Shown: positions 7,990 through 26,818 of the stretch, piece after piece
Layout: each line of letters opens with the position of its first letter
Position numbering within the stretch: position 1 is the first letter of the stretch
Notes under the pieces: generated by a model
Database searches by the model: none
Told to the model about the DNA's origin: nothing
What the model saw: the letters and a program-made list of their open reading frames with translations, nothing else
Translations under genes and position numbers: made by a program
Source: Synergistaceae bacterium
GTDB taxonomy: Bacteria > Synergistota > Synergistia > Synergistales > Aminobacteriaceae
Length of the DNA: 49,039 bases
Direction: 5' to 3'
Assembly: GCA_031272035.1 (NCBI GenBank)
Contig: JAISUO010000049.1
Location: 1 to 49,039 of the forward strand

Positions 7990-9372
7990 ATGTTAATCGC
8001 AACATGGGTCATAGCGTTTTTGATCATGGTCGCTCTGGGCATTTACGCGGGCAACGTCATCAGCCAGTCCAACCAGTGGAGCGGCGCGGACAGAACATTG
8101 GGAGTGTGGGGGCTGGCCTGCATCTACGCGGCCTTCCAAATCGGCGGCGCCGCCATCGTGGGAGCGGCTCAGGACGGCTACAACTTCGGTCTGGCGGCCA
8201 TGTGGTACTCCCTGGGCACCGGCTCCTACTTCATCGTGGACGCGCTGTTCGCCGGAGGGCTCCGCGCCAAAATGACGGGCGACTCCGTCCCCGCCTTTCT
8301 CAGGCAGCATTTCAACAAAGGGCTGTCCCGTTTTTACGCCGTGATGTTCCTTCTCATGATGCTGTTCCTCATTCCCCTTCAGAGCAAATCCGTCGCCTCT
8401 TTGATTCAGGTCGTCATCCCCGAACTCGACGTCAGGATCTGCCTGGTCGTTTCCATCACCTTGGCTGCGGTTTATACCGGTTACGCCGGAATGAAGGGAG
8501 CGGAGGTCATCGGCAAGATCGTGTGTTTCTTCACTTACCTGCTCCTCATCGCGTTTGTCATTATGCACCTGAATAAATTTGGCGGCTACAGCGGTTTGGT
8601 CGCCAGCCTTCCGGAAGGGCACGGAAAAATATTCGCCGGACGCATGACGCCCGCCTACGTGGGAGCGCTTATTCTCGGCGGCGTCCTCAGTTCGTCTCTG
8701 TCCCAGGTGGTCCTCCAGCCCCTGCTGGCCGCCAGAAGCGACGGCGTTGCCCGCGCGGGGGCGTTGCTGGGCTACGTCATCAGCGCTCCGATTTGCATCA
8801 TCACCGGCATCATAGGCATGATGGCGGCCAAGCACAGCAATTTCAGCCTGGGGAATGGCGTCGGCGCTTTCGCATGGATCACCAAGGAACTCAGCCACCC
8901 TGCCGTTGCAGGTCTCTTCTTCGCGGTCACCACCATGATTATCGCGGCCACCATGGCCACCTTCATCATGTCCGCCGGGACGGTGGTGAAAGGCCTTTAT
9001 TTCGATCTCATCAACCCGAAGGCCACAGATAAGCAATTGCTGGCAGTGTCTCGATGGGGAACCATCCTGGCGGCCTACATCACCCTGATTCCCGCCATCC
9101 TTCTGCCCTCCAGCGCCATCAACGCGTTGTTCATGACCGTCCGGTACGCCTGCGGCTCGCCCTTCAGCTTCGCCATCATCGGTGGAACCTTCTGGAGCAG
9201 GGTCACCACGAAAGCCGCATCCTGGAGCGTCATCGCGAGCACCATCGTCGTCGCCGTCTGGCTTGTCATGGGACTCGACGGCAGGATTTCGGTGTTGTAT
9301 CCTTCCCTGGTGGTTTCCTTCGCGGTGGGCATCGCGGCCACTCTGATGGACTCGGGCAAGGCGAAGTCCTGA
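7990..9372 (+). CDS. sodium:solute symporter (SSS family)
   Basis: Secondary transporter of the solute:sodium symporter (PutP/PanF-like) family in the inner membrane. The 460 residues give about 12-13 hydrophobic segments in the LeuT-fold order. Typical SSS features are the GAAQDGYNFGLAAMWYSLG region after TM2, KMTGDSVPAFLRQHFN in the cytoplasmic loop, and the long helix GYAGMKGAEVIGKIVCFFTY. ATG 7990 follows TGAGGTGAT. It sits between the unknown 341-residue protein and the LarA-like protein, so it probably imports their substrate. Sequence alone does not name the substrate; carboxylates, proline and sugars are all possible in this family. Confidence 0.88.
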   Translation: MLIATWVIAFLIMVALGIYAGNVISQSNQWSGADRTLGVWGLACIYAAFQIGGAAIVGAAQDGYNFGLAAMWYSLGTGSYFIVDALFAGGLRAKMTGDSVPAFLRQHFNKGLSRFYAVMFLLMMLFLIPLQSKSVASLIQVVIPELDVRICLVVSITLAAVYTGYAGMKGAEVIGKIVCFFTYLLLIAFVIMHLNKFGGYSGLVASLPEGHGKIFAGRMTPAYVGALILGGVLSSSLSQVVLQPLLAARSDGVARAGALLGYVISAPICIITGIIGMMAAKHSNFSLGNGVGAFAWITKELSHPAVAGLFFAVTTMIIAATMATFIMSAGTVVKGLYFDLINPKATDKQLLAVSRWGTILAAYITLIPAILLPSSAINALFMTVRYACGSPFSFAIIGGTFWSRVTTKAASWSVIASTIVVAVWLVMGLDGRISVLYPSLVVSFAVGIAATLMDSGKAKS

Positions 9373-9394
9373 AGGATACTGAAGGAACGAAGGC

Positions 9395-10669
9395 ATGAAG
9401 TTCACTTTACAGCAAAATATGTGGCAGGGTTTCGAGCCGGTGGAGATCGAGCTGCCTGACGCCTGGGACGTGGAGTACCACGGCGTCAAAGCCGACTCCC
9501 TGCCCGCGCTTACAAAGGAGGAAATCCGGGCGAAAATCAACAGGCCCTTCGGCCTGCCGCCCCTTCGGGAGCTCGCCAGGGGCCGGCAAAAGGTCGCCAT
9601 CGTTTTCGACGATATTTCCCGTGGCACGCCCACGCAGATCCTGGCCGAAATCGTTCTGGAAGAGCTGCACGCGGCGGGCATTCAAAAGGAGCAGATCCGA
9701 TTCCTCTGCGCTTTGGGCATGCATGGGGCGCACAACAGGCGCGACTTCGTCTGCAAACTGGGCGAAGAAATCGTCAGCAGCTACGACGTCTACAACCATA
9801 ATTGCTACGAGAACAACCTGCAGATCGGCGTCACCAAACGCGGGATTCCCGTCCAAATCAACGCCGAGCTGATGGCCTGCGACCTGAAAATCGGTCTGGG
9901 CGCCATGCTTCCCCACATCTTCAACGCTTTCGGCGGCGGCGGCAAAATCCTGTTCCCCGGCATGGCTTCGGACGTGACCGTGAACGGAAACCACACGGCC
10001 ATCGTTTCGTTCATGCAAAAGAACAAAGTCTCCCTGGCGGACCTGCTGGGCGACCTGCGGGTGGACGCCATGCGCACGGAAGTGGAGGAAATGACCCGGA
10101 TGGTGGGGGAGTTCTTCAAGATCGACTGCCTCTTCAACACCCGCCAGGAGATCGTTGACGTATACTCCGGGGACGCCATTGAGGAATACTACGCGGCGGT
10201 TCCCAAGGCCCAGGAAATCTACGTTTCCAAACGGGCCAGGGACAAGCAGATCGTCATCGTCAACGCCAACGCCCGTTCCAACGAGGCCAACATCGCTCTC
10301 GCCCTGGCGTTTTTGGGCATTTCCAGAGAAACAGGCGGAGACATCGTGCTCATCGACCGAACCACCATGGGACAGATCGTTCACTATCTTTTCGGCATGT
10401 TCGGCGACGACGCCCCCGGCAGGCAGTACCGCAAGGTAGCCAAGCCCAGCGATTTCATCCGCCGCATCATCTGCTTCATGAACAGAGATTCCACCACGGC
10501 GCACATCCTGGGCAACATGGACAAGCAGGTCTACGTCAACTCCTGGGCGGAGGTCATGGAGCTGCTCAGGGATTACGGCCCGGGAACGAAGGTGTCGGTT
10601 CTGGCGGACGGCAGTATGCAGTATTTCGAGATCGACCCAAACCTGAAGCTGACCTCGGGCGCGGCCTGA
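9395..10669 (+). CDS. LarA-like protein (DUF2088, nickel-pincer racemase family)
   Basis: Homologue of the lactate racemase catalytic subunit LarA, a family that racemises or epimerises 2-hydroxy acids with the nickel-pincer cofactor NPN. The 424-residue length is normal. Family motifs are visible: FDDISRGTP (71-79, with R76), LCALGMHGAHN (H110), YNHNCYEN (H135), and DLKIGLGAMLPHIFNAFGGGGK (split across H174 and K184). The only lysine between GIPV (151-154) and PH (173-174) is K165, so the cofactor-tethering lysine of the Lactiplantibacillus enzyme may not be at its usual place. No larB, larC or larE lies in the window, so cofactor synthesis would be elsewhere. ATG 9395 follows GAAGGA. The substrate is unknown. 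Confidence 0.8.
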   Translation: MKFTLQQNMWQGFEPVEIELPDAWDVEYHGVKADSLPALTKEEIRAKINRPFGLPPLRELARGRQKVAIVFDDISRGTPTQILAEIVLEELHAAGIQKEQIRFLCALGMHGAHNRRDFVCKLGEEIVSSYDVYNHNCYENNLQIGVTKRGIPVQINAELMACDLKIGLGAMLPHIFNAFGGGGKILFPGMASDVTVNGNHTAIVSFMQKNKVSLADLLGDLRVDAMRTEVEEMTRMVGEFFKIDCLFNTRQEIVDVYSGDAIEEYYAAVPKAQEIYVSKRARDKQIVIVNANARSNEANIALALAFLGISRETGGDIVLIDRTTMGQIVHYLFGMFGDDAPGRQYRKVAKPSDFIRRIICFMNRDSTTAHILGNMDKQVYVNSWAEVMELLRDYGPGTKVSVLADGSMQYFEIDPNLKLTSGAA

Positions 10670-10703
10670 TCGAATCGCGGCGGAAAATCGGGAAGGGGCC
10701 ACG

Positions 10704-11090
10704 ATGGATAACGAGACCTATATCATCGCCCAGGCGGACAAACAGGTTCTCAAAATCAGCGGACTGTCCGTGAAAGGGCTGGACACGAGACGGCTGGAAG
10801 CCATTCTGAGCGAAAAGGTCGGAAGTGTCGTTCGGGTTATCGGAGTTACGGGAAGTTCTATCGAAATGGACATCTACGGCGTCCCCGACGAACAGGTTCT
10901 CAGGAACGAAAGAGGGTTTGTGGAAGCGCTTGCCCTTGCCGAGGGCATCACGATTTCCGACCTTACGGCTGTGACGGCTTCACGAAAAATTATTCCCGCT
11001 GACTTCGCCGACATGCCTCCTGACAGAGACGCCGCCTGCGCCGCGGAAAGATGGATGCCCCATAAAGAAGGACGCGTCGTAAAAAAATGA
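10704..11090 (+). CDS. uncharacterised 128-residue protein of the LarA/SSS operon
   Basis: Not recognised. A small soluble protein with beta-strand-like repeats in the first 60 residues (TYIIAQADKQVLKISGL, VGSVVRVIGVTGSSIEMDIYG), then a helical region (EQVLRNERGFVEALALAEG) and a Pro/Asp-rich tail ending in lysines. There is no membrane segment and only one Cys. ATG 10704 follows GGAAGGGG. It lies 34 bases after the LarA-like gene, and its stop overlaps the next ATG (ATGA at 11087-11090), so the two products are probably made in matching amounts. A binding or regulatory subunit is possible; there is no direct evidence. Confidence 0.72.
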   Translation: MDNETYIIAQADKQVLKISGLSVKGLDTRRLEAILSEKVGSVVRVIGVTGSSIEMDIYGVPDEQVLRNERGFVEALALAEGITISDLTAVTASRKIIPADFADMPPDRDAACAAERWMPHKEGRVVKK

Positions 11091-11596
11091 GAAACGTTTT
11101 GATCCTGCCCACGGGCGGTGAAATTCGGGACGGGACTGTTCTGGACACGGACAGTCCCGAACTCATGCGTCAGGTTCTCGCTGCGTACCCCCTGTGCCGG
11201 GTAATCCGGGCCTCCCCGCTTTCAGACGAGGAATCGGCCATTGCCGAGGCCGTGTTGGAAGGGCGCGACGGAGGAGCCGGGCTGGTTGTTCTGATCGGAG
11301 GAAGCGGCGGCGGACACCGGCACAGCAGCAGCCTGGGAAAAGATTACACACACTCGGCGCTGGAAAAAATCCTGGAAAATCCGGCGTCCAGAGCCATCTA
11401 CGGAAAGAATGGCCACCTGTGGAGCAGAATGCTCTGCGGCCGGCTGGGCGATACGGTCGTCATCAACGTGCCCGGCCCTTTCACAGAGGCTCAGGCGGCC
11501 TTCGCCGCTTTTCTCAAAAGCTGGCGGGACAGGCCCGGCGACTGCGCCGCCGCCTGCCTCGCCATGGCGGAAGCGGTGCTCGAACATTATGGATGA
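11087..11596 (+). CDS. MoCF-like (MoaB/MogA/MoeA-fold) protein
   Basis: A 169-residue protein that resembles the molybdopterin-binding MoCF fold. The N-terminus ILPTGGEIRDGTVLDTDSPE matches the T-G-x-E-I-x-x-G-x-x-x-D-x-N strand-loop, and LVVLIGGSGGGHRH followed by GKDYT matches the GG-S/T-G loop with its downstream Asp-x-Thr. The later part (GDTVVINVPG) also fits the fold. It is overlapped at both ends: the start by the upstream stop, and its stop by the next ATG (11589). In this operon it may bind a nucleotide-like cofactor or substrate rather than make molybdopterin, since no other molybdenum-cofactor gene is present. The family call is moderate and the role is inferred. Confidence 0.62.
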   Translation: MRNVLILPTGGEIRDGTVLDTDSPELMRQVLAAYPLCRVIRASPLSDEESAIAEAVLEGRDGGAGLVVLIGGSGGGHRHSSSLGKDYTHSALEKILENPASRAIYGKNGHLWSRMLCGRLGDTVVINVPGPFTEAQAAFAAFLKSWRDRPGDCAAACLAMAEAVLEHYG

Positions 11597-12173
11597 CACG
11601 GTCACAGGAGTGTTTTTTTGCGCGGGGATGATGGGGTCGTCCATTCCCTTCGCCGCCGGAGGCTTTTGTCAGTCGGGGACGGAACGGCTCTGTGAAGAGG
11701 AAATGAGGAGGCTGGAACATCTGAACCTTTCATCCTGCCGTGACCTCTTCCTTCTGGACAAAAAAGCCGCCGAAGCGGTGCAGGAACGCGCGAAGTCTTT
11801 CATATACGCGGTGGGGATCACCTTCCGCCATCCAGAAATCTGCGCCTCTACGGGAGGCGTGCTGGGCAACCCGAACCGGGAGGGTCGGTCTTCCGAGGGC
11901 ACGACGGAGGATATTGGAAACGGTTTCAGCATGTTCTCCCACCCCGGCGGCCCAGGCGTCGTCATTCGAGGGGACGCGGAAACGCTGGAACCGCTTGCCC
12001 GAATGAGCTTCAACGGACTGAAAGGCGGGAAAAAAGCCGAGATCGCGGAGGCCGTTTTAAGAGAAAATGCCGTAGAAGTCTATATGATCCTCACGGACGG
12101 AACGGGCCCTGACGCAGAAGGCATCCTCCGGATCAGAGCCGGCAGAAGGAACATCCGTTACAGGCTGCCCTGA
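11589..12173 (+). CDS. uncharacterised 194-residue protein, last gene of the LarA/SSS operon
   Basis: Not recognised. A soluble protein with several small-residue loops: FFCAGMMGSSIPFAAGGFCQ near the N-terminus, YAVGITFRHPEICASTGGVLG (about 72-92), MFSHPGGPGVVIRGD and VYMILTDGTGPDAEG. Three cysteines lie in or near the first two loops. No signal peptide is evident, although the first 20 residues are mildly hydrophobic. ATG 11589 overlaps the upstream gene by eight bases, indicating coupling. It closes the operon; the next gene is convergent at 12219. It might form a complex with the MoCF-like protein, as their stoichiometric coupling suggests. Confidence 0.72.
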   Translation: MDDTVTGVFFCAGMMGSSIPFAAGGFCQSGTERLCEEEMRRLEHLNLSSCRDLFLLDKKAAEAVQERAKSFIYAVGITFRHPEICASTGGVLGNPNREGRSSEGTTEDIGNGFSMFSHPGGPGVVIRGDAETLEPLARMSFNGLKGGKKAEIAEAVLRENAVEVYMILTDGTGPDAEGILRIRAGRRNIRYRLP

Positions 12174-12218: not shown

Positions 12219-13178
12219 TTACGCCGTGCGAATGATCTCCGCGAGCACGTTTGCCACACCTTCCGCGTCGCGGAGGCAGATCATCTCGCCGGGAGAGAGA
12301 CGGCCTTTCGTGGGCAGGCCGATGGCGCACGCCGACGCGCCGGCGCGAAGCATGTGGCTTGCGGCAGTTTCGCGTCCGTCCGGTTTGTCGATGATCTCGC
12401 GCTGAAGCTCGACGCCCGCTCTCCTGGCGCAGGTCTCGACCCGCTCAACCGCATCCCGGGGGTATATCGCGCCCGTGTCCCGAAGGACGACGGACGGGCC
12501 GTGTCCGAACTTCGTCCTTCCAGCGTCGATGACGTCAATCGCGACGCCAATCTCGGGGGCGAGGGCCCCGGATGCCGCCCTGACGCCTCTGGCGTCCAGC
12601 TCTGCCTGCGCGGCGAAAACGAACGCCATATCGCCTCGGGCGCGCGTTTCTCCCGCCGCCATGACGAGCGCGGCGCACGCCGCCGCCGCCGCGCAGGAGG
12701 CCCCGATCACAATGCCGTCCCCCTCCGCGAACGCCGGAGGAAACGTGGCGGCATCCCCCGCCCTGACTCCGGAGGCGTGTTCAGGCGAGCCCATGTCGAT
12801 ATACAGATTCTTCATTTCTACGGAGGCGTCATAAGCGACGACGCCGCGCCCTCCGCCGCTGAAGCGGACCTGCGCGCCAACCAAAGCGTGGGGATCGAGT
12901 GTCCCTATCGGCATAAAACCGACCTTCCCCGTCCCGTCGGGGGTTTTCGCGATCAACGTCGGCGAGTCGAGAGGAGCGCAGATCATGATTTTTCTCCCCT
13001 TTTCCCCATTTCCCCCGGTTCCGCGGCGGCACACGATCAGGCTGCCAAGGGGGTCGAACGAAATTTCGTCCGCAAGGCCCTCCATCGCGCGGGCCAAAAC
13101 TTCCGCTCTCTCTTTTTGGTATCCCGTGGGCGCCGGAGCTTCCACGATGTTTTTGATTAACGCGAGCAGTTCCGTCAT
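12219..13178 (-). CDS. M42 aminopeptidase paralogue, probably inactive
   Basis: A 319-residue member of the M42 glutamyl-aminopeptidase family, third of three tandem copies. It keeps the fold pattern (YQKERAEVLARAMEGL; SFDPLGSLIVCRRG; GFMPIGTLDP), but the dinuclear metal site is eroded. Compared with the adjacent active-looking copies, AHTDEVG becomes APLDSPT (His lost), KAIDDRLG becomes VIGASCAAA (Asp lost), and VCEEVGLRG becomes AAQAELDARG (catalytic Glu lost, second Glu kept). Only one Asp ligand (IDVIDAG) and a downstream His remain plausible. It lies four bases after the preceding gene, so it is co-expressed; it may be a structural or regulatory subunit of a mixed M42 shell. It is also about 27 residues shorter than its neighbour. 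Confidence 0.78.
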   Translation of the reverse strand: MTELLALIKNIVEAPAPTGYQKERAEVLARAMEGLADEISFDPLGSLIVCRRGTGGNGEKGRKIMICAPLDSPTLIAKTPDGTGKVGFMPIGTLDPHALVGAQVRFSGGGRGVVAYDASVEMKNLYIDMGSPEHASGVRAGDAATFPPAFAEGDGIVIGASCAAAAACAALVMAAGETRARGDMAFVFAAQAELDARGVRAASGALAPEIGVAIDVIDAGRTKFGHGPSVVLRDTGAIYPRDAVERVETCARRAGVELQREIIDKPDGRETAASHMLRAGASACAIGLPTKGRLSPGEMICLRDAEGVANVLAEIIRTA

Positions 13179-13182
13179 ATCT

Positions 13183-14220
13183 TCACTTCCCCATTATGCG
13201 AATGAAAAGCCGCGTCAGGTCGAGCACGGCGACGGCGTCAGGCAGATACAGGACGTTGTTGGCGCTGTGAATGTAGCGGGTGGGCGCGGACACGCCGAAC
13301 GTAAGGGAGCCGCCGTTCCTCAGATGGATCGAGCCGGAGTCCGTGCCCCCTTTCGCCCCGTCGCGGGGCTGCCAGCGAATACCCTCGGCATCCGCCGCTT
13401 CCGTCATTCGCCGCAGAACATCCCGATCGTAAAACGTGGCGCGGTCCATCAGAGAAACCGCCGCGCCGCCTCTCTGATACGTCGGGCGGTTGTCGGAGGG
13501 AACGCCTGGCATGTCCGCCGCGCTCGTCCCCTCCAGGACAAGGGACACGTCGGGGCGGACCCGTTCCGTGAGCGCCGCCGCGCCGCGAAGCCCGACCTCC
13601 TCGCACACCGAGAACGCGAACCACGCGTCGAACGGCAGTTCTTCCCGGATGAGCGCAACCATCACGGCGCAGCCCAGACGGTCGTCGATGGCCTTCGCCT
13701 TGAAATAGTCCTCGCCGAACGGGCAGGGCTCGCTTTCAAAGGCGATCGGGTCGCCGACGTGGACGTGCCGGAGCGCCTCCGCCCTGTCCCTGGCGCCGAT
13801 ATCGACGAACAGCTCCTCTATGGAAGGGCAGAGGGTTTTCTTTTTTTCGTCCCACAGTTGGAACGCCTTGACGCCCACCACGCCGGGCAGGTTCTTCTCT
13901 CCGATCCGCACCCTTTGCCCCAGGATGACGCGGGGGTCGAGAGAGCCCACGGCGACGAATTTCAGCAACCCCTCGTCCGTGATTCGAAAGACGAGCCCCC
14001 CGACCTCGTCCGTGTGCGCGCAGATCATTAAACGCCGGGCCGGGCGCTCCGCTCCTTTTTTAAATACGATGAGGCTCCCCATCGCGTCGGTCGTCATCTC
14101 GTCGGCGTGGGGCGCGACCATCTCGCGGACGGCCGCACGCGCGCGATCCTCGTAGCCCGAAACGCCATCGACGGCGCACAGCGTCTGCATCAACGCGGTC
14201 AGTTCGGTTCGCGAGGTCAT
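13183..14220 (-). CDS. M42 family aminopeptidase
   Basis: Metallo-aminopeptidase of family M42 (glutamyl aminopeptidase/TET type), usually a 12-subunit cytosolic shell that trims peptides from the N-terminus. The 345-residue product has the full active site: H and D in ICAHTDEVGG, bridging D in KAIDDRLG, the Glu pair in VCEEVGLRG, the acid in LVLEGTSAAD and the downstream GGTDSGSIH with YIHSANN. I start at ATG 14220, which overlaps the stop of the upstream paralogue (ATGA), rather than at a start 57 codons earlier inside that gene. It acts downstream of the Dpp peptide importer in the same transcription direction. Confidence 0.9.
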   Translation of the reverse strand: MTSRTELTALMQTLCAVDGVSGYEDRARAAVREMVAPHADEMTTDAMGSLIVFKKGAERPARRLMICAHTDEVGGLVFRITDEGLLKFVAVGSLDPRVILGQRVRIGEKNLPGVVGVKAFQLWDEKKKTLCPSIEELFVDIGARDRAEALRHVHVGDPIAFESEPCPFGEDYFKAKAIDDRLGCAVMVALIREELPFDAWFAFSVCEEVGLRGAAALTERVRPDVSLVLEGTSAADMPGVPSDNRPTYQRGGAAVSLMDRATFYDRDVLRRMTEAADAEGIRWQPRDGAKGGTDSGSIHLRNGGSLTFGVSAPTRYIHSANNVLYLPDAVAVLDLTRLFIRIMGK

Positions 14221-15287
14221 GAGACGCGGCCTCCTTCTCCATTCAAACCCTGAAAGTCCAAACCGCGAAAGTCCCGACAGAAGGCGCATAACAGCTTTCC
14301 CAGCGCTTCCACGTCGTCCAGGCGGACCGTTTCGACGGGCATGTGCATATACCGGACCGGCAGAGAAACGACGACCGTCGCCGCGCCGCACGCCGCGATT
14401 TGCGCCGCCCAGGCGTCCGTCCGGCTGGTTCTCGGTATGGCTTCAAGCTGATAAGGGATGTTTTCCCGCTCGGTGACCGCGATCAACGCCTCCGCCATGC
14501 GCGGGGAGCTGTTCGCGCCGCGCCCGATCACCGGCCCGCCCCCCATCTCGTGTACCCGCTCATATTTCCCGGCGTCCGGCGTTCGCGCGTGACAGGCGTC
14601 CACCACGACGATATATTCGGGGCGTTCGCGCCTGACGACCTGCTCCGCGCCGTGCAACCCGGATTCCTCCCTCGTGACGCCTGCGACCGCGAGCTGACAC
14701 GGCAGTTCCACGCCCGCAAGCCCTTCGAGCGCGTGGAGAACGGCTGCGAGCCCCGCTCTGTTGTCCATCGCCGGGCCGGCGATCGTTCCGCCCAGAAGCT
14801 CCACCGGCCTCGTGTCGTATACGGCGAAGTCGCCCGGACGGATCAGTTCTCTCGCCTTTTCGCCGCTCATGCCGAGGTCCAGCGTCATATCCTCCGGGCG
14901 CGGCGCTTTCAGCTCGTCCCCGTCTTCCTGGAGGTGAGGGGGCAGCGCGCTCACGATGGCTTTGAGCGGGCCGTTTCGCGTCAGGATCGTCATTTCGTTC
15001 GAGAGCAGGATTCTGGCGTCGATGCCGATTGGCGAAAAACGGGCGAAGCCATCGTCCGTCACCTCCGTGACCATCAGGCCCGCCTGGTCGATGTGAACGT
15101 CGATCAGGAGCTTCGGCGCGCCCGTTCGGGAACTGCCGCGCATGGCCACGACGTTCCCGAATGGATCGACGGATACCGAGTCCGTCAGGGGGCGCAGCCT
15201 GGCCGCGAGATCGGCCGACACGGCGCCTTCGTCTCCCGAGACGCCGCGCAGAGACGACAGACGCATGATTTCACTTTTCAAATCCAT
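14217..15287 (-). CDS. M42 family aminopeptidase
   Basis: First of three tandem M42 genes, 356 residues. Metal ligands and catalytic residues are intact: IDVHIDQAG (H, D), PAMDNRAG (bridging D), TREESGLHG (catalytic Glu plus ligand), VVVDACHA (D) and RYMHMPVE (final His). The RTSRTDAW segment fits the family's substrate loop. I place the start at ATG 15287, preceded by GAGGTG; the longer reading from 15344 would begin inside the terminator hairpin. The next gene overlaps its stop by four bases. It should hydrolyse peptides brought in by the Dpp system just upstream. Confidence 0.9.
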   Translation of the reverse strand: MDLKSEIMRLSSLRGVSGDEGAVSADLAARLRPLTDSVSVDPFGNVVAMRGSSRTGAPKLLIDVHIDQAGLMVTEVTDDGFARFSPIGIDARILLSNEMTILTRNGPLKAIVSALPPHLQEDGDELKAPRPEDMTLDLGMSGEKARELIRPGDFAVYDTRPVELLGGTIAGPAMDNRAGLAAVLHALEGLAGVELPCQLAVAGVTREESGLHGAEQVVRRERPEYIVVVDACHARTPDAGKYERVHEMGGGPVIGRGANSSPRMAEALIAVTERENIPYQLEAIPRTSRTDAWAAQIAACGAATVVVSLPVRYMHMPVETVRLDDVEALGKLLCAFCRDFRGLDFQGLNGEGGRVS

Positions 15288-15344
15288 GAACACACCTCGC
15301 CTGCGGGAGACAGCCCGAGCCTTCCCGAGAGTCGTTCGTTTCAT

Positions 15345-15395: not shown

Positions 15396-16895
15396 CTATT
15401 TCCAGCTGAAATTGTAGATGAAGTAGAACGTCAGATCCAGACTGGCGTTGAGGTTTTTGGACCAGGCGTAGGGCTTCGACCTGTAGAGAATGGGGACGAA
15501 CCCGCAGATTTCCTGCACGTAATCGTTCGCTTCCCTGTAGATCGCCTGACGTTTCGCGTGGTCGAGCTCCACGTCGCCCTTGTCCATCAGCTCGTCGATG
15601 TGCGGGTCGCGGAACTTCACGGCCGCCACTTCGGCGGAGCGGGTGTGCGTCAGCCGCGAAAAATAGCTGAAATCGCGGTCGAGGCTGAGTCCCATGAGCC
15701 CGAAGCCGTAGGTCCCCTTGCGCATATTCGCGATGACGGCGGATGTGTCCATCGGCTGAATCGAGCAGGTGACGCCGATCTCCTCGAAATTCTGCTGGAG
15801 GACCTGCGCGATCTTGGGCCAGTAGCTGCTGCCGATGATGATCATGGGCCCCACGTCGATCCCGTCGGCGCAGCCCGCTTCTTTCATGAGCGCCTTTGCC
15901 TTCTCGGGGTTGTACTCGTATTTGACGCCGTCCTTTGGCGCGTCCGCGACGTACTTCGGGTACAGCATGAAATCGGCGGGCTCCGCCAATCCCTCGTAGG
16001 ACGCGATGATGATGGACTCCTTATCCACAGCGCAGGCCATCGCCTGGCGCAATTTCTGATTGTCAAAGGGCTTCTCGCTGATGTTGAAGGCCAGATAGCT
16101 GATGTGGTTCTCAGGAGCGAGCACCGTCGTGTATTTTTTGCTCTCCTCGATCCCGGCCCAGTTCGACAGCGGAATCTGCACCAGATCCAGCTCGCCGCTC
16201 TCAAAGGCGATAAGCGCGCTGGAGGTGTCGGGCATGATGCGGTACGTGACGTTTTTGATGGCCGGCGCGCCGCGCCAGTAGTCGTCGAACGCGACCAGCT
16301 CGACGCGGCTGCTGGGGTCGTACTTCACGACCTTGTAGGGGCCGGTGCCGCAATCCACGACGGTCGTCCCGAACTTGTCCCCAGCCGCCTCGACGGCCTT
16401 TTTGTTCAGGATCGCGATATCGACGATATAACCCAGAGCGGCGGTCATGACGGCCTTCGTCTTCACCTCGACCGTGGAGGGATCCACCGCGCGCACGCTT
16501 TCGATGGGCGAGACGCGCATCGCCATCGCGGGCGCTTTCATGGCCCGCTGGAAGGAAAAGACCACGTCGTCCGCCGTCACGGGCTCTCCGTTGTGAAATT
16601 TGGCCTTACGAAGTTTGAAGGTGTACGTCCTGCCGTCCGAAGCCAGCGTGTGGGACTCCGCGAGGCGCGGCGCAAGCGTGGTGTCGTCCTGGGTGTAGTA
16701 CAGGCTTTCGTACATCTGCCACAGTATCTGAAGGTCCGCGAGGGCCGTCGTGTAGTACGGGTCGAGTGAGGTCATCTCGCTGGGGATCGTCAGGTTGATG
16801 TCGGTCCTCGGCGCGGCCGTCGCCGCGTGGAACGAACCCCACGCCGTGAGAACGGCGAGAGCGATTGCGAGCGCGAAGAGCATCTTTTTACACAT
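15396..16895 (-). CDS. peptide ABC transporter substrate-binding protein (family 5, DppA/OppA-like)
   Basis: Extracytoplasmic receptor for peptides (or nickel/opines in related proteins) of the SBP family 5. It is 499 residues, with signal peptide residues 1-28 (MCKKMLF, then ALAIALAVLTAWGSF, cut near ATAAPR). Family motifs are LTIPSEMTSLDPYYTT, LAPRLAESHTLASDGRTYTF, KFHNGEPVTADDVVFSF (the SBP_bac_5 signature), GTGPYKVVKYDP and a C-terminal VPILYRSKPYAW. I choose ATG 16895, seven bases after AGGAGGA. It is the last of five dpp-type genes, after both ATPases. No lipobox cysteine is evident, so it may be a free periplasmic protein. Confidence 0.92.
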   Translation of the reverse strand: MCKKMLFALAIALAVLTAWGSFHAATAAPRTDINLTIPSEMTSLDPYYTTALADLQILWQMYESLYYTQDDTTLAPRLAESHTLASDGRTYTFKLRKAKFHNGEPVTADDVVFSFQRAMKAPAMAMRVSPIESVRAVDPSTVEVKTKAVMTAALGYIVDIAILNKKAVEAAGDKFGTTVVDCGTGPYKVVKYDPSSRVELVAFDDYWRGAPAIKNVTYRIMPDTSSALIAFESGELDLVQIPLSNWAGIEESKKYTTVLAPENHISYLAFNISEKPFDNQKLRQAMACAVDKESIIIASYEGLAEPADFMLYPKYVADAPKDGVKYEYNPEKAKALMKEAGCADGIDVGPMIIIGSSYWPKIAQVLQQNFEEIGVTCSIQPMDTSAVIANMRKGTYGFGLMGLSLDRDFSYFSRLTHTRSAEVAAVKFRDPHIDELMDKGDVELDHAKRQAIYREANDYVQEICGFVPILYRSKPYAWSKNLNASLDLTFYFIYNFSWK

Positions 16896-16914
16896 AACTA
16901 CTCCTCCTTTTATT

Positions 16915-16978
16915 AACAAAACAAATTATTAACTATTAACAAAACAAAGCATCGAACAAAACAAAAAATTGAACAAAA
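16915..16978. repeat. AT-rich repeats upstream of dppA
   Basis: AACAAAACAAA is present at 16915-16925, 16938-16948 and 16955-16965, with a partial copy at 16972-16978 (spacings 23, 17, 17). In the dppA mRNA this reads as a U-rich UUUGUUUUGUU series just upstream of a strong ribosome-binding site. Confidence 0.8.
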
Positions 16979-16994
16979 TAACCCACCGGCGCTT

Positions 16995-17993
16995 TTATAC
17001 ATCTTCGCTTTTTCCTTTCACTAACGCGCAGGCCACGTAATGCCCCTCTCCGGCTTCGCGGAGTTCCTGATCCCCGTTCACGCAGGCGGAAGAACAGAAA
17101 TCGCAGCGGGAAGCGAAGCGACATCCGGGCGGTGGTTCGATGGGGCTTGTCACCTCCCCTCGAATGACCTCCGATTCCTTTGCCGCGACGTCGATATCCG
17201 GCTCCGGAATGGCGGCGATCAGAGCTTTCGTATAGGGGTGCAGGGGATTGGCGAACAGCTCCCGTGAAGGAGCGCGCTCGACGCACTTCCCCAGGTACAT
17301 CACGGCGATTTCATCGGAGATGTGTTTCACGACCGACAGGTTGTGCGTGATGAACATGTAGGTCAGTCCCCGGTCATCCTGCAAATCCATCAGAAGGTTG
17401 AGTATCTGCGCCTGTATGGAGACGTCCAGGGCCGAGACCGGCTCGTCGCACACGATGAAACTCGGGTTCAGAGAAAGAGCGCGGGCGATGCCGATGCGCT
17501 GCCGTCTTCCCCCGTCGAGCTCGTGGGGATAGGCGTTGGTCAGCCTTTGCGCCAGCCCCACCGTGTCCATCAGCTCCGCCGTGCGGTTGTCGATCTCGCG
17601 CCGCGTCCGGAATATCCGGTTCACGATCATGTACTCGGAAATGAGTTCCGAGACCGTCATGCGCGGGTCGAGGCTGGAATAGGGGTCCTGAAAGATGATC
17701 TGCATCCTCTTCCGCATCTCCCGCAGCTGGCTCTTGCCGTAATGGATGATGCTCTCGCCCTCGAAGCGCACGTCCCCGTCCGTGTGGGGAATCAGGCGCA
17801 GGATGACCCTGCCCAGCGTGCTTTTTCCGCATCCGGACTCGCCGACGACGCCCAGCGTCCTGCCCCTCATGATCTTCAGGTCGATGTCGTCAACCGCGTG
17901 GAGCATTCCCCGCGAGGTTTTGAAGTATTTCCTGAGCCCGATGGTCTCCACAAGCGGCGTTTCACCCGTCGGGGCATCAACGTTGCGCCTCAC
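16995..17993 (-). CDS. peptide ABC transporter ATP-binding protein (DppF-like)
   Basis: One of two ATPases driving peptide import. The 332-residue protein has Walker A GESGCGKST, Q-loop IFQDPYSSLDP, Walker B FIVCDEPVSALD and the switch histidine in ITHNLSVV, plus the C-terminal oligopeptide-transporter extension with cysteines (PPGCRFASRCDFCSSAC) that can hold an Fe-S cluster. The ABC signature is odd: the expected LSGGQ reads LDGGR (in YPHELDGGRRQR). I set the start at GTG 17993, seven bases after AAGGAGG; this overlaps the end of the dppD-like gene by 17 bases. Upstream ATGs would extend it deep into that gene. Confidence 0.88.
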   Translation of the reverse strand: MRRNVDAPTGETPLVETIGLRKYFKTSRGMLHAVDDIDLKIMRGRTLGVVGESGCGKSTLGRVILRLIPHTDGDVRFEGESIIHYGKSQLREMRKRMQIIFQDPYSSLDPRMTVSELISEYMIVNRIFRTRREIDNRTAELMDTVGLAQRLTNAYPHELDGGRRQRIGIARALSLNPSFIVCDEPVSALDVSIQAQILNLLMDLQDDRGLTYMFITHNLSVVKHISDEIAVMYLGKCVERAPSRELFANPLHPYTKALIAAIPEPDIDVAAKESEVIRGEVTSPIEPPPGCRFASRCDFCSSACVNGDQELREAGEGHYVACALVKGKSEDV

Positions 17994-19005
17994 GCAAATC
18001 CCTCCTTTCATCGAAGAGATTTCCGTCGAAGGAATTTCCAGCGAAGAGATGACAGCGAATCCTGTGCGTTCCCAGGATTGCGTCGTCGGGATGGACGCAG
18101 TCGCAGACATCCACGCGCTGGGGGCAGCGGGGAGAGAAGGAGCAGCCCGGGGGGAGGTTCGTGGGGTCCGGCATGAGTCCGCCGATCGGGTTGAGCCGCA
18201 CGGCTTCCGATCGGATGGAGGGGATGGAGCCGAAGAGCCCGACGGTGTAGGGGTGGTGATTCGCCCCTTTGAAGATGTCCGCTTTCGTTCCGTATTCGAT
18301 GATCTCGCCCGCGTACATCACCGCCACGTCGTCGCAGGTGCGCGCCACGACGCCAAGGTCATGCGTGATCATGATCATTGAGGTTCTCAGGCGCTCTTTG
18401 AGGTCGCGCATCATCTTGAGCACCTGCGCCTGAATCGTGACGTCCAACGCCGTCGTGGGCTCGTCCGCGATCAGCAGGTCCGGCTCGCAGGCGAGCGCGA
18501 TGGCGATGACCACGCGCTGTTTCATCCCGCCGGAGAACTGATGCGGGTACTCATTCTTCCGCGACGGCGGTATGCCAACAAGTGAGAGGACGGTCTCGAC
18601 CTTCTCCTCGACGCTCCTGTCGTGCCTTCCGCCGTATTTATGCAGAATGAGCGCCTCCGCGATCTGGTCGCCGATGGTCAGCACCGGGTTCAGGCTGGTC
18701 ATGGGGTCCTGAAAAATCATGGATATCCGTTTTCCCCTGATGGCGCGCATTTCAGTCATCGGCAGGGACAGGAGGTCCAGCCCGTCAAACAGTATTTTCC
18801 CTCCCGTCACGATTCCGATACGCTCCGGCAGCAGGCGAAGCAGAGAAAGGGCGGTCGTCGTCTTTCCCGCGCCGGTTTCTCCCACCAGGCCGAGGGTTGT
18901 CCCGCGTTTCAGCGAAAGGTCGATGCCGTTCACCGCCCGGACCGTTTCGAGGTCGGTCTTATAGATGACGCTGAGGTTTTCGACGTGAAGCAGCGTGTCG
19001 TTCAT
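17977..19005 (-). CDS. peptide ABC transporter ATP-binding protein (DppD-like)
   Basis: Partner ATPase of the peptide importer, 342 residues. Walker [11 protein letters not shown]-loop [11 protein letters not shown], a standard signature FSGGMKQRV, Walker [13 protein letters not shown] and the switch region MITHDLGVV are all intact, followed by the oligopeptide-family C-terminal domain with [17 protein letters not shown]. The tail after CHLF is low-complexity ([11 protein letters not shown]). I start at ATG 19005, behind AGAAAGAG; an in-frame ATG seven codons upstream is possible. It sits 41 bases after the dppC-like gene. Confidence 0.9.
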
Positions 19006-19046
19006 GGCATACTCTTTCTGTTCCATCGCCTGTTCCATCGCCCGCG

Positions 19047-19919
19047 TCAGTTCTTCAGCTTGGGGTCGAGTACGTCGCGCAGGCCGTCGCCGACCAGGTT
19101 GAAGGACAGCGCCGAGAGGACGATGGCCATGCCGGGAAAGATCATCATGTGAGGGGCGACGCGCATAAACTCCCGCGCCTCGTTCAGCATCGCGCCCCAC
19201 TCCGGGCGGGGCGGCTGCACGCCCATCCCCAGAAAGCTCAGGCTGGCGGCCTGGAGGATGAGCTGGGAAATGCTCATGGTCGCCTGCACGATGATGGGGC
19301 CCAGCGCGTTGGGGATGACATGCCGCAAAATGACGCGGGCGTCGCCCGACCCTCCCGCCAGCGCCGCCTCGATGAACTCCTGATCCGCGATGGTGAGCAC
19401 GGCGGACCGCACGATGCGGACGAAGGCCGGCACGCGCGAAATCGTGATCGCGGCGATGAGGTTTCGGACGCCGGGGCCCAGCGCCGAGACGACGGCGAGG
19501 GAGAGCAGGAGGCTGGGAATGGACGTGAGAACGTCCATCAGACGCATGATCACGTCGTCGATGCGCCCCATGAAATACCCCGCCGCCGAGCCCAGCACCC
19601 CGCCCACGGACAGCGCGATAAGCGTCGTGACCACTCCGAGGGCGAGGGACGACCGCGCGCCGTGAACCACGCGGGCGAACTCGTCCCTCCCCAGGTCGTC
19701 CGTGCCGAAAAAGTGAGCAGCGGACGGCGTTTGCAGACGCTGCCTGACGTTTTGGGAGATGGCGGACTTGTAGGGCGCGATAACGTCGCCCAGGATGACG
19801 CAGACGATCAGGATGACGACGAAGACGAGACCCGCCATCGCCGCCGGATTTTTCCTGTAGCGCCGCCACAGTTCCTTGAAAACGCTCTGTTTTTTGAGTT
19901 TCGCCCTTTCGCTTTCCAT
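19047..19919 (-). CDS. peptide ABC transporter permease (DppC-like)
   Basis: Second transmembrane subunit of the peptide importer. The 290 residues contain an N-terminal helix (AMAGLVFVVILIVCVILGDV), a periplasmic stretch HFFGTDDLGRDEFARVVHG typical of DppC/OppC, and five more helices. The EAA-type coupling motif is visible as EAALAGGSGDARVILRHVIPN. ATG 19919 has AGGGA upstream; a GTG at 19934 overlapping the dppB-like stop (GTGA) is a plausible alternative that adds five residues. Confidence 0.9.
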   Translation of the reverse strand: MESERAKLKKQSVFKELWRRYRKNPAAMAGLVFVVILIVCVILGDVIAPYKSAISQNVRQRLQTPSAAHFFGTDDLGRDEFARVVHGARSSLALGVVTTLIALSVGGVLGSAAGYFMGRIDDVIMRLMDVLTSIPSLLLSLAVVSALGPGVRNLIAAITISRVPAFVRIVRSAVLTIADQEFIEAALAGGSGDARVILRHVIPNALGPIIVQATMSISQLILQAASLSFLGMGVQPPRPEWGAMLNEAREFMRVAPHMMIFPGMAIVLSALSFNLVGDGLRDVLDPKLKN

Positions 19920-19930
19920 GAGCGCGTCCC

Positions 19931-20863
19931 TCACTTCGTGTACTTCGCCTTGATGCGCGGGTCGACGAAGGCGTACATCAGGTCGACCGCCAGCATGATG
20001 AGGCAGAAAAAGACGGCGAGGAAGAGCGTTGTCCCCATGACGACGGGGATATCTTTCGTCTTGATGCTGGTGACGAGAAGCATCCCGAGGCCGGGGATCG
20101 AATAGACCGTCTCGGTGATCATCGCGCCCCCCAGCAGGCCGCCGAAGTTGATGCCCGTGATGGTGATGACGGGGAGCAGCGCGTTCTTAAGGGCGTGCTT
20201 CCAGATAACGACGCGCTCGCTGGCGCCTTTCGCCCGCGCCGTGCGCACGTAGTCCTGACGGACGGACTCCAGCATGGTGGAGCGCGTGAAGCGGAGCTGA
20301 TGCGCCGCGAAGGGGAGGCCGATGGCGAACATGGGGAGGATGTAGTGCCGCCAGCTGTCGACGCCGTTGCTCGGCAGGATTCCGAGCTTGAGCGAGAAGA
20401 TGTACATGAGGATCATGCCCAGCCAAAAGGACGGAACGGCCGCGAAGAACATGGCCGTCGTGGTGGAAAGGGTGTCGACCGCAGCGTACTGCCTGACGGC
20501 GGAGAGCACGCCCAGGGGAATCCCGATCAGGCACGCGCAGAGCATCCCGTTGAACGCGATGATGATCGACGTGGGCGCGCGCCGGAGGATCACGTCGATG
20601 ACCGGTATCTGGCTCCTGTAAGATTTTCCCATGTCCAGGCGGAAAATGAGGTCATAGATATAACGGGCGAAACGAACCAGAAGCGGCCTGTCGTACCCGA
20701 GTTCGTGATTCAGCGCGTCGATGGCCGACTGCTCCGCCGACGTTCCCAGGATCAGCGTGGCGGGATCTCCCGGCGTAAGCGAGCTGATGAAAAACACGAT
20801 GAAGCACACGCCGACGAGGATGGGAATAATTAGCAAAAGCCGTTTGATAACGTATCGATACAT
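19931..20863 (-). CDS. peptide ABC transporter permease (DppB-like)
   Basis: First gene of the dpp-type operon. The inner-membrane permease of 310 residues has the DppB/OppB start MYRYVIKRLLLIIPILVGVCF, periplasmic LTPGDPATLILG, and six hydrophobic helices. The coupling loop reads YVRTARAKGASERVVIWKHA, the family's EAA motif. ATG 20863 is close behind AGAAGG. The 240 bases upstream separate it from the regulator gene at 21105, which reads in the same direction; no convincing consensus promoter was found there although the stretch is AT-rich. Confidence 0.92.
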   Translation of the reverse strand: MYRYVIKRLLLIIPILVGVCFIVFFISSLTPGDPATLILGTSAEQSAIDALNHELGYDRPLLVRFARYIYDLIFRLDMGKSYRSQIPVIDVILRRAPTSIIIAFNGMLCACLIGIPLGVLSAVRQYAAVDTLSTTTAMFFAAVPSFWLGMILMYIFSLKLGILPSNGVDSWRHYILPMFAIGLPFAAHQLRFTRSTMLESVRQDYVRTARAKGASERVVIWKHALKNALLPVITITGINFGGLLGGAMITETVYSIPGLGMLLVTSIKTKDIPVVMGTTLFLAVFFCLIMLAVDLMYAFVDPRIKAKYTK

Positions 20864-21104: not shown

Positions 21105-22427
21105 CTATTTTTTCAGGTTGATTCGCACGATCCGTCCTGGACGCCCCGCCGTTGGCGAGGATTCCTTTCCCACGACGGTCAGATATCCTCCCGTTTCGAG
21201 CTTGAGCAGGATGCGGTTCATGCTTCGCAGGTTGATGCCGTAGAGGTCGGCCAGCTCTCTGGCCGTCGTGTCACGCAGATGGTGCTGGCGGACGATGCCG
21301 TCCAGCCTGGTCAGCGTCCGCAACCCGACGCCGGTCCGCTCCGAAACGCGGGACAGGGCCGCGCCGGTCCTTTGGCTCTCCTCGTCTTCATAGTCGGTGA
21401 CGGGACCAATGACGAGCTGATCCTCGTGCACGGCGAACATGCAGCTGACTCCGTTCGATCTCGCATGGCGAAGCGCCAGGCGGGCGTTGTGCTGAGATTG
21501 GCTGGCGTCGCCGCCGATGCCGATCCCGACGAAAATCTTTTGTTCCTCTCCGCGAAGAGAGAACATCCGCAGCGGGTCGAACCGTTTGAAGTCCCCGGTT
21601 TCGCTTCGGATAGCGGTCTGGGTTGTGAAAAGAGAAAAATGATCGGGAGGCGACTCAACGAGGGCCGCGCCCAGCCTCTGCGCGAACATATAAACCGGTT
21701 CGCTGACGGCGCTTCTGTCGTAGAACTGCTGGAGGATATTGGGGCCGGAGGACGTCCGCTCAGACTGGTAAGCTATCTCGATCTCAACGGCGGCCAGACG
21801 GAACTCCTCCATCATCTTGCTCTGGAGATCAAGACGCAGTTTATTGATTTGCTGGACGATGACCTCCGTTACGTTGCTGATGATGATGCAGGGAACACCC
21901 TCGCGGGTCAGGAACTCGAACACGCGAACGATGCCCGTGACGCAGCAGGTTGTCCTGCCGCTCTCGAACAGTTGTTTGTGGAACCGGCAGAGAAGGTCGA
22001 TGTAGTTTTCCTCGAAAAGGCTGAACCCCGCGAAATAGGGTTCGATGTCGCCGCCCGCATACCCCGCCTGGCGGTAGGCGTTGTGAATCAGGCTCTCGTT
22101 ATAGGAATCGAAGCTCGCGCGGCGGATGTCCAATCCCTTCACGTAGGCGGCCTGCAGGAGCGAGCAGACGAGGGAGAGAAGGCTTTGAGGAATGTACTCC
22201 CAGGGGCAGGAGGCGCGGAGGAAGCGGAGAACGTACCGGTAAGGCGTGGAGCCGGTGAAGAGCACGCAGTCCACCTCGCTCTGCCTTCCCCGAAGAATGG
22301 AAACGGCGTCCTGAAATGTCCGGTACGGCAGCGGAACGGGTTCGACGTACATCACGTGCCCTCTGATCGCCTCGATCACCCGGTCCACGCTGGTCTGCGG
22401 CCCGACAATTCCAATCTTCGTAACCAA
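21105..22427 (-). CDS. transcriptional regulator with GGDEF-like domain and C-terminal HTH
   Basis: A 440-residue cytoplasmic protein in three parts. The N-terminal half (LVTKIGIVGPQTSVDRVIEA onward) looks like a ligand-sensing region. The middle (about 300-350) reads KIFVGIGIGGDASQSQHNAR with RLALRHARSNG, resembling the degenerate GGDEF-like domains of CdaR/PucR-type regulators. The C-terminus (about 380-440) is a winged helix with RELADLYGINLRSMNRIL and a basic GRPGRIVRINLKK wing. I choose TTG 22427 because GGGGGGA lies six bases upstream; the longer readings overlap the kinase gene. It lies between the kinases and the dpp operon, so control of peptide uptake is plausible (inference). Confidence 0.65.
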   Translation of the reverse strand: MVTKIGIVGPQTSVDRVIEAIRGHVMYVEPVPLPYRTFQDAVSILRGRQSEVDCVLFTGSTPYRYVLRFLRASCPWEYIPQSLLSLVCSLLQAAYVKGLDIRRASFDSYNESLIHNAYRQAGYAGGDIEPYFAGFSLFEENYIDLLCRFHKQLFESGRTTCCVTGIVRVFEFLTREGVPCIIISNVTEVIVQQINKLRLDLQSKMMEEFRLAAVEIEIAYQSERTSSGPNILQQFYDRSAVSEPVYMFAQRLGAALVESPPDHFSLFTTQTAIRSETGDFKRFDPLRMFSLRGEEQKIFVGIGIGGDASQSQHNARLALRHARSNGVSCMFAVHEDQLVIGPVTDYEDEESQRTGAALSRVSERTGVGLRTLTRLDGIVRQHHLRDTTARELADLYGINLRSMNRILLKLETGGYLTVVGKESSPTAGRPGRIVRINLKK

Positions 22428-22519
22428 AAGCGTTCCCCCCGGCATCAACCCATTTTTCGCGTCCGATATTCGATCTATAAAATGCGGGCGGCATAAACTG
22501 TCAGATGGTCCATGCCCTG

Positions 22520-24580
22520 TCAAATAAAGGAAGCGAGTTTTTCCACCAGAGCTTCAATTTCGTCGCAGAACGCGTTGAGCTGTCTGGCTGTCTGCTCGTC
22601 TCTCGGAATCGATATCGTGTCGGCGATTCTGCCGACCTTGTCCGCTCCAATGCTGTAACAGGACAGCTTTATATCCTGAACCACATCGGCGAAACTCGAT
22701 TCGTCGTCGGATTCGCAGTATTCCTTCAAACAGCGCAGGGCGCCGGGAGCGCTGTCTGTGAAGCCCCTCAAAGCCGCCAGGTAAATTTCGGGCTTGTAGT
22801 CAAACCGCGCAAGGCCCTGGGCAAAATCCATTCCGTCGATACTGACAAAGGAGAAGAACTTATCCATGGATTTCTGCTGAATCCGGTGCTCCTGCCTCTG
22901 ATCCAGAAGAGAGGTCTCCGGTTCCGGGCTCTCCGGCCCTCCGGGGTGAGAAATCCACCGGAGCAAAATGGCGTCCAGCTCCTTCGAATCGATGGGCTTG
23001 GAGAGGTATCCCTGAAACCCGCTCTTCAGGAACATGTCGTCGGCGCCGGCCATGGCCGTGGCGGTCAGCGCGATAATCGGCACACTCCTGGCGTATTCCG
23101 TGTCGATTTCGTTCCGAATGATCCTCACCGCCTCCACGCCATCGATGCCTGGCATCATATGATCCATAAAAATCAGGTCATACCGCGGATTTTCGTCCCG
23201 GATCATTTGAATCGCCTGCCAGCCGCTGGCCGCCCTGTGAACGGTGAGATCGTAGTATTCCATCATGCCCTGCGCGACCTCAATGTTCATCTCCACATCG
23301 TCCACCACCAGCACCTTTTTACCCGTCATCGACACGAAGGACATCGCCTCCCGGTTTTTGCCGGCGCTGGTGATGAAATCAAATTTTTCCAGATTCGAGG
23401 CGACTTCACTTCCGATGATGGTGACGTTCGCCACGTTCTGCCTCAGGGTGACGCAGAACAGGCTTCCCCTGCCGTACTCGCTTTCAACGGTTATATTGCC
23501 CTGCATCATGCGGACGAGATTTTTGCAGATCGCAAGTCCCAGCCCCGTGCCCTCCGTGGCGCGGTGACTGGCCATATCGACCTGTTCGTACGCGCCGAAA
23601 AGTTTTTCGATATTTTCCGGCGATATTCCGATCCCGCTGTCTTTCACGTCGAAGCACAGCATAAAACGGTCGGCTTCGTAATAGCCATGAACATAAAGCT
23701 CCACAAATCCCTCTTTCGTGTATTTAATGGCGTTTGACACGAGATTGTTCACAATCTGGAGGATGCGCAGATCGTCTCCGTAAAGTCGGGACGGCAGTTT
23801 TTCATCTACCTTCAGCCGAAATTCCAGGGGTTTCGAGCCTATTCGGACGATATTCATTGAGACGACGTTTCCTATCAGGTTGGCCACATCGTAATCCACC
23901 GGCAGAAGCTCCATCCTGCCGGCCTCAATTTTGGAAATGTCCAGAATATCGTTGATGATACTCAGAAGCGTGTTCCCTGCCGAAAAAACTTTTTCGAGGT
24001 TGGAGAGGGTATCGACGGGAAGCGTCTTGCGAAGCTCCAGCTCCGTCAGTCCCTTGATGGCGTTGAGGGGCGTGCGGAGCTCGTGGCTCATGCTGGCAAG
24101 AAAGCTGCTTTTGATTTTGCTCGCTTTCTCGGCGGTTTCCTTGGCCTCCAAAAGCTCCCGCTCCATTTTGATGTAAGACGTAACGTCCACCGCCAGCTGC
24201 AGGTGGACTTTTTTGCCGCAGGTCCATTCGATGAGGCGGTCGGTGTTTCTGAAGACGCGCCCGTCGGCGCATTCCACGTCCCAGCGGACAATCTGCTCGG
24301 GCTCCTTCGTCAGTTTGTGCATGGGGCAAAAATCGCAGCGCCCGTCGGCGCTGGTCTGCATAACCTCCCAGCATCTCTGTCCGACCCCGGCTCTGGCCGT
24401 CCTGTAACTGCGGTTGATCCTGTCGTTGACAAATAAAATTTCATCTGTCTCAATGTCCATGACGTAAATCGAGGCGTCGAGATTGTCGAAAATATGGTCG
24501 ATGCTGGACAGCGGCAGCCCCGCGACGGAGCCGTCGAGGGAGCCAACCTGCAGGTCGGACTCCGGCCTGTCATTTACCAT
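22520..24580 (-). CDS. hybrid histidine kinase (PAS-HisKA-HATPase-REC-Hpt-like)
   Basis: Cytosolic-looking sensor kinase of 686 residues without clear membrane segments. Order: PAS-like domain (about 25-135; IFDNLDASIYVMDIETDEIL) with a Cys cluster DGRCDFCPMH; HisKA with SMSHELRTPLNAIKG (phospho-His); HATPase with N-box NNLVSNAIKYT and G-boxes DSGIGIS and GTGLGLAICKNL; a receiver with acceptor Asp in LIFMDHMMPGIDG and Lys in LSKPID; then an Hpt-like helical domain. In the last, the expected H-x-L-K-G reads QDIKLS, so the phosphorylatable His is missing. ATG 24580 has AGGGAG upstream. It is 39 bases after the other kinase gene. Confidence 0.9.
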   Translation of the reverse strand: MVNDRPESDLQVGSLDGSVAGLPLSSIDHIFDNLDASIYVMDIETDEILFVNDRINRSYRTARAGVGQRCWEVMQTSADGRCDFCPMHKLTKEPEQIVRWDVECADGRVFRNTDRLIEWTCGKKVHLQLAVDVTSYIKMERELLEAKETAEKASKIKSSFLASMSHELRTPLNAIKGLTELELRKTLPVDTLSNLEKVFSAGNTLLSIINDILDISKIEAGRMELLPVDYDVANLIGNVVSMNIVRIGSKPLEFRLKVDEKLPSRLYGDDLRILQIVNNLVSNAIKYTKEGFVELYVHGYYEADRFMLCFDVKDSGIGISPENIEKLFGAYEQVDMASHRATEGTGLGLAICKNLVRMMQGNITVESEYGRGSLFCVTLRQNVANVTIIGSEVASNLEKFDFITSAGKNREAMSFVSMTGKKVLVVDDVEMNIEVAQGMMEYYDLTVHRAASGWQAIQMIRDENPRYDLIFMDHMMPGIDGVEAVRIIRNEIDTEYARSVPIIALTATAMAGADDMFLKSGFQGYLSKPIDSKELDAILLRWISHPGGPESPEPETSLLDQRQEHRIQQKSMDKFFSFVSIDGMDFAQGLARFDYKPEIYLAALRGFTDSAPGALRCLKEYCESDDESSFADVVQDIKLSCYSIGADKVGRIADTISIPRDEQTARQLNAFCDEIEALVEKLASFI

Positions 24581-24619
24581 AAGGAACAGCTCCCTGTTTC
24601 AATCGTCTTTCGCATAAAC

Positions 24620-26803
<2,184 letters not shown>

Positions 26804-26818
26804 TACAAATGCCCTCCC

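Follow-up and report, generated by a model that had tools for sequence, protein, structure and literature searches.

M42 aminopeptidases of the TET type have mostly been studied as homododecamers, their subunits forming dimers and then hollow dodecamers. TmPep1050 of Thermotoga maritima, the nearest solved relative of the protein on which this work centers (C, below), is an active dodecamer on its own, so an intact subunit of the C type needs no partners. Together with TM1048 (1vho, which we take to be this protein) and TM1049 (2fvg), TM1050 (3isx, 4p6y) belongs to a run of consecutive locus numbers, and all three sites are intact. Mixed M42 assemblies are also on record. Among the TET1, TET2, and TET3 enzymes of Pyrococcus horikoshii, PhTET2–PhTET3 heterododecamers exist (PMC4220976), and in Bacillus subtilis the M42 paralogues YtoP and YsdC form a heterodimer that was modelled (9a5r) and supported by crosslinking in cells (PMC10090944). 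Analogous pairs of paralogous subunits, both needed and only one catalytic, are known from the M16B proteins SPH2681/SPH2682 and TTHA1264/TTHA1265 (PMC12731061) and from alpha/beta MPP, where one of the two paralogues carries the catalytic residues (PMC11266112), although these M16 heterodimers are unrelated to M42 in fold and family. In the literature searched we found no description of an M42 pseudo-subunit, with a 2024 review of pseudo-metallopeptidases not containing the string M42, and none of reciprocal loss of loop and metal site in M42 arrays.

The window, the whole stretch of 49,039 nucleotides analyzed here from a Synergistaceae bacterium, contains three M42 genes lying head to tail in an apparent minus-strand operon with the order oppB-oppC-oppD-oppF-SBP-A-B-C (Table 1). 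The A stop and B start codons overlap as ATGA, and C starts 4 nt past the B stop. The A reading frame is given from 15344, with an alternative start at 15287 (MDLKSE...) also plausible. Our sequence scan for sigma-70-like promoters and terminator-like sites at the operon found none above background.

Table 1. Coordinates of the window operon and of M42 loci in other genomes
Feature	Sequence	Position	Strand	Remarks
oppB, OppB-type permease	window	19931..20863	(-)	first gene of the run
oppC, OppC-type permease	window	19047..19934	(-)	
oppD, OppD-type ABC ATPase	window	17977..19062	(-)	
oppF, OppF-type ABC ATPase	window	16995..18110	(-)	
SBP_bac_5, peptide/nickel-type solute-binding protein (SBP)	window	15396..16919	(-)	directly upstream of A
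M42 aminopeptidase A	window	14217..15344	(-)	metal site intact (H,D,EE,D,H); PPH substrate loop
M42 aminopeptidase B	window	13183..14220	(-)	metal site intact, Glu at D235 position; loop KAFQL
Candidate M42 pseudo-subunit C	window	12219..13178	(-)	H68, D182, E212, H323 equivalents lost; E213, D235 kept
M42 trio, G034	L040	8231-11176		M55 D-aminopeptidase gene and SBP upstream
M42 trio, G025	L041	8210-11260		M55 D-aminopeptidase gene and SBP upstream
M42 array, G216	L186	6056-9074	(-)	C damaged by E212A only
M42 array, G310	L187	2949-6095	(-)	B damaged, E212D and H323R
Natural A-B fusion, Clostridia MAG	L115	1144-3252	(+)	one ORF, 736-aa open frame

All three proteins score above the curated cut-off of 23.2 bits for the Pfam M42 profile PF05343 (A 225, B 238, and C 77.6 bits). 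The single-chain AlphaFold2 model of C, built with 18 window and relative sequences, is confident (pLDDT 92.0, pTM 0.92), and its top Foldseek matches are the M42 TET enzymes 1xfo and 1y0r (TMq 0.90; TM 0.90 to PhTET2), making C an M42 homologue by both sequence and predicted fold. A competent M42 site was taken to comprise the ligands H68, D182, E213, D/E235, and H323 with the catalytic E212 (PhTET2 numbering; roles from PMC8993905 and PMC3511314). A and B have all of these residues, while alignment of C with B and TmPep1050 shows four of the six to be gone: both ligand histidines (H68 is P69, in APLD, and H323 is L294, in TKGRLS), the bridging Asp (D182 is A163, in GASCAAA), and the catalytic Glu (E212 is A192, in QAEL). 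Retained are E213 (E193), D235 (D215), and the conserved D70 (D71), giving C the signature PDAAEDL at positions H68-D70-D182-E212-E213-D235-H323. The original prediction of three tandem M42 genes, the third with an eroded metal site in an intact fold and reading frame, agrees with the open reading frames, the alignment, and the model; it named the ligand His, bridging Asp, and catalytic Glu correctly and overlooked the fourth loss, at H323. Judged by its residues, C is not classed as an aminopeptidase, though it is an M42 homologue.

To place the trio, we drew on a B-anchored scan, which needs B-like motifs and is thus biased to intact B, though not to intact A or C. Tandem M42 genes proved common: among the 80 Bacillota loci (mostly Clostridia) that matched best, 77 held two to four M42 ORFs, with two in 53 loci, three in 19 (one of them owing to a split ORF), and four in 5, and one more locus held the A-B fusion (L115, Table 1). 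Every complete member in these loci has an intact site. The order is nearly always A-B(-C), and signatures are fixed by position: 74 of 75 A proteins carry the PPH loop, all 75 B proteins have the loop His and all but one of them Glu235, and the loop His is missing from 21 of 23 C and 5 of 5 D proteins. The catalytic-chamber loop of the window C, short and without the conserved His, is therefore usual for its class. By order and signatures the window trio is an A/B/C tandem array, the exception being the B loop, which is present with its His replaced by Gln (KAFQL). This Gln stands where the G164 orthologue of B (below), like all the Bacillota B proteins, carries His. In the tree, A proteins form one group (SH-aLRT 88) and B proteins another (99), each including its window member; the window A and B adjoin Clostridia arrays, and the window and G164 C proteins fall among the C/D proteins of Clostridia arrays. 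When eight Clostridia genomes were searched with a profile of these two C proteins, the top match in every one was the C/D member of the array, confirming the identity of C. The PDB matches of A to 1vho (third best), B to 2fvg (best), and C to TmPep1050 (best) follow the same order, and with loop and 235 signatures in agreement TM1048-1049-1050 looks like the same trio. The tandem array itself is thus ordinary and known in kind; what distinguishes the window trio from the T. maritima one, as from the P. horikoshii enzymes (same family and fold, all subunits active, mixed in vitro) and from YtoP-YsdC (no third member, neither reported dead; PMC10090944), is its dead C.

This dead C is not confined to one genome. 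G164, from another family of the same order, has the same operon with the trio in the same position, an SBP 72% identical to that of the window upstream of it, the same A-B-C order and ATGA overlap, a B-C gap of 3 nt, and a C that is also dead (RDGSEDL at the signature positions above). An independent genome having this orthologue, we rejected a sequencing artefact or chance ORF as the cause of C. Across the class, about 10 of the 183 genomes examined carry an M42 trio, a patchy presence that suggests transfer between lineages; those of family f9 are intact and have no adjoining SBP. A single-protein scan of genome contigs with C gave 89 pattern matches and no relative.

Dead members recur in other arrays. 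In G034 and G025, both with the order SBP-A-B-C, A and C are dead and B is intact: A keeps PPHI and has lost the metal site, B keeps the metal site and has lost the loop, and C has lost E213 as well. The G034 C, though more diverged, is still predicted to fold confidently (AlphaFold2 pLDDT 91.7, pTM 0.91). A further search took in 394 genomes of one order; among its 30 best loci, G216 has a damaged C and G310 a damaged B (Table 1). Every array with a dead member retains at least one intact member. If a conserved pseudoenzyme is a protein that has lost catalytic residues yet, in at least two lineages, keeps its frame open under purifying selection, then the window and G164 C proteins are such, as are the A and C proteins of G034 and G025.

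One alternative is that C is a decaying, functionless pseudogene. The window and G164 C proteins are only 40% identical, compared with 63% and 70% for A and B, so C evolves faster than its neighbors; conserved columns have been lost broadly in C; and the two drafts from the window's own genus (G001 and G002, 88% and 82% complete) contain no match to it. These drafts also contain no complete M42 gene, meaning that what is missing or unassembled in them is the entire operon and not just C. The original prediction held that absence or disruption of the copy in close relatives would indicate simple decay; this is borne out only in part, as the absence extends to every complete M42 gene and C is not singled out as lost or broken. 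In two families, moreover, the frame is open and tightly coupled to its neighbors, with 311 codons aligned between the two C genes and no stops, and the predicted fold is of high confidence. Identity exceeds that expected from composition by 0.30 at the first codon position, 0.47 at the second, and 0.07 at the third, leaving the second strongly constrained and the third near saturation, and NG86 estimates (dN 0.64, dS 1.85) indicate purifying selection, in a test made coarse by its single dead-C orthologue pair and a dS near saturation. Both C proteins carry H323L, a change that none of 33 intact C/D proteins shows, so it predates the split of the lineages and the ORF survived it; with the purifying selection, this implies that erosion of the site in C had begun before the lineages diverged and that C has been retained as a protein since. 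The check proposed with the original prediction, a comparison of the dead copy across related genomes, came out partly in its favor. The codon test also led us to reject a lineage-specific pseudogene, and as it largely refutes decay in general, we regard a functionless C as very improbable.

Two further readings keep C functional. C might still be a hydrolase with an altered site, for example by using E193 and D215 to bind a single metal, these positions being kept in both the window and G164; with the bridging Asp, both His, and the catalytic Glu all replaced, E213 missing as well from C of G034 and G025, and E212 strictly conserved in the enzymes aligned by PMC3511314, the chance of this appears slimmer still than that of a functionless C. 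A more serious contender has C acting apart from A and B, in peptide binding, sensing, or as a chaperone of imported peptides, with the M42 fold serving as a binding cleft. Window C keeps 8 of 16 columns conserved in intact C proteins near the motifs and 25 of 40 elsewhere (p 0.55); its losses are thus not concentrated at the active site, and C may have drifted to another role. A few derived residues are common to the window and G164 C proteins, and C adjoins genes for an SBP and an Opp importer. C is, however, always encoded in an array with an intact A and/or B alongside, and the recurrence of dead A, B, or C members is easier to explain by interchangeable subunits, leaving a separate role for C rather unlikely.

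We therefore favor, with moderate confidence, the reading that A, B, and C form one set of TET-type M42 subunits, C being a pseudo-subunit that co-assembles with A and/or B. The original prediction of a structural or regulatory subunit fits the conservation of a dead C in G164 and the recurrence of dead members beside intact ones, and to this extent it stands; the mixed M42 shell that it also proposed would rest on the natural A-B fusion, the complementary losses, and analogy with the precedents elsewhere. In such a system, peptides would be brought in by the Opp importer and trimmed at the metal sites of A and B. C would fold as an M42 subunit, should not hold two metals or activate water, and would most likely join A and/or B in mixed dimers or dodecamers, where as a non-catalytic member it may shape the chamber or stabilize the shell. 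As metals aid dodecamer assembly (PMC8993905), a metal-free C may assemble poorly.

A broader proposal, which we put forward tentatively as possible rather than probable, is that the products of bacterial M42 arrays are obligate heteromers, TET peptidases whose paralogues divide the labor: some subunits carry the metal site, others supply the PPH loop in trans, and others serve as scaffold only. The loop His of one TET subunit may lie near the active site of its neighbor, its mode of action being open (PMC8993905). The complementary losses of loop and metals in G034 and G025 are what shared active sites between A and B would lead one to expect, and are difficult to account for if A and B each form a homomer of their own. 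Under this proposal, the division would be complete in G034 and G025, with A contributing only the loop, B only the metal site, and C neither, and the window operon would be an intermediate stage, with C contributing neither and the B loop His lost. Arrays that split loop and metals between paralogues offer a natural test of loop action in trans, and they suggest that Bacillota and related bacteria commonly make heteromeric M42 machines.

On the upstream side of the opp genes, 21105-27985 (-) of the window encodes a 472-aa protein that matches no Pfam family, along with two hybrid histidine kinases and a FIST-domain protein. Convergent with the operon, 7990-12173 (+) encodes an SSF symporter, a MoCF-domain protein, a 128-aa orphan, an ORF without Pfam match, and a LarA-like protein scoring below NCBIfam cut-offs; LarA-like genes also lie near the M42 trios of G034 and G025.
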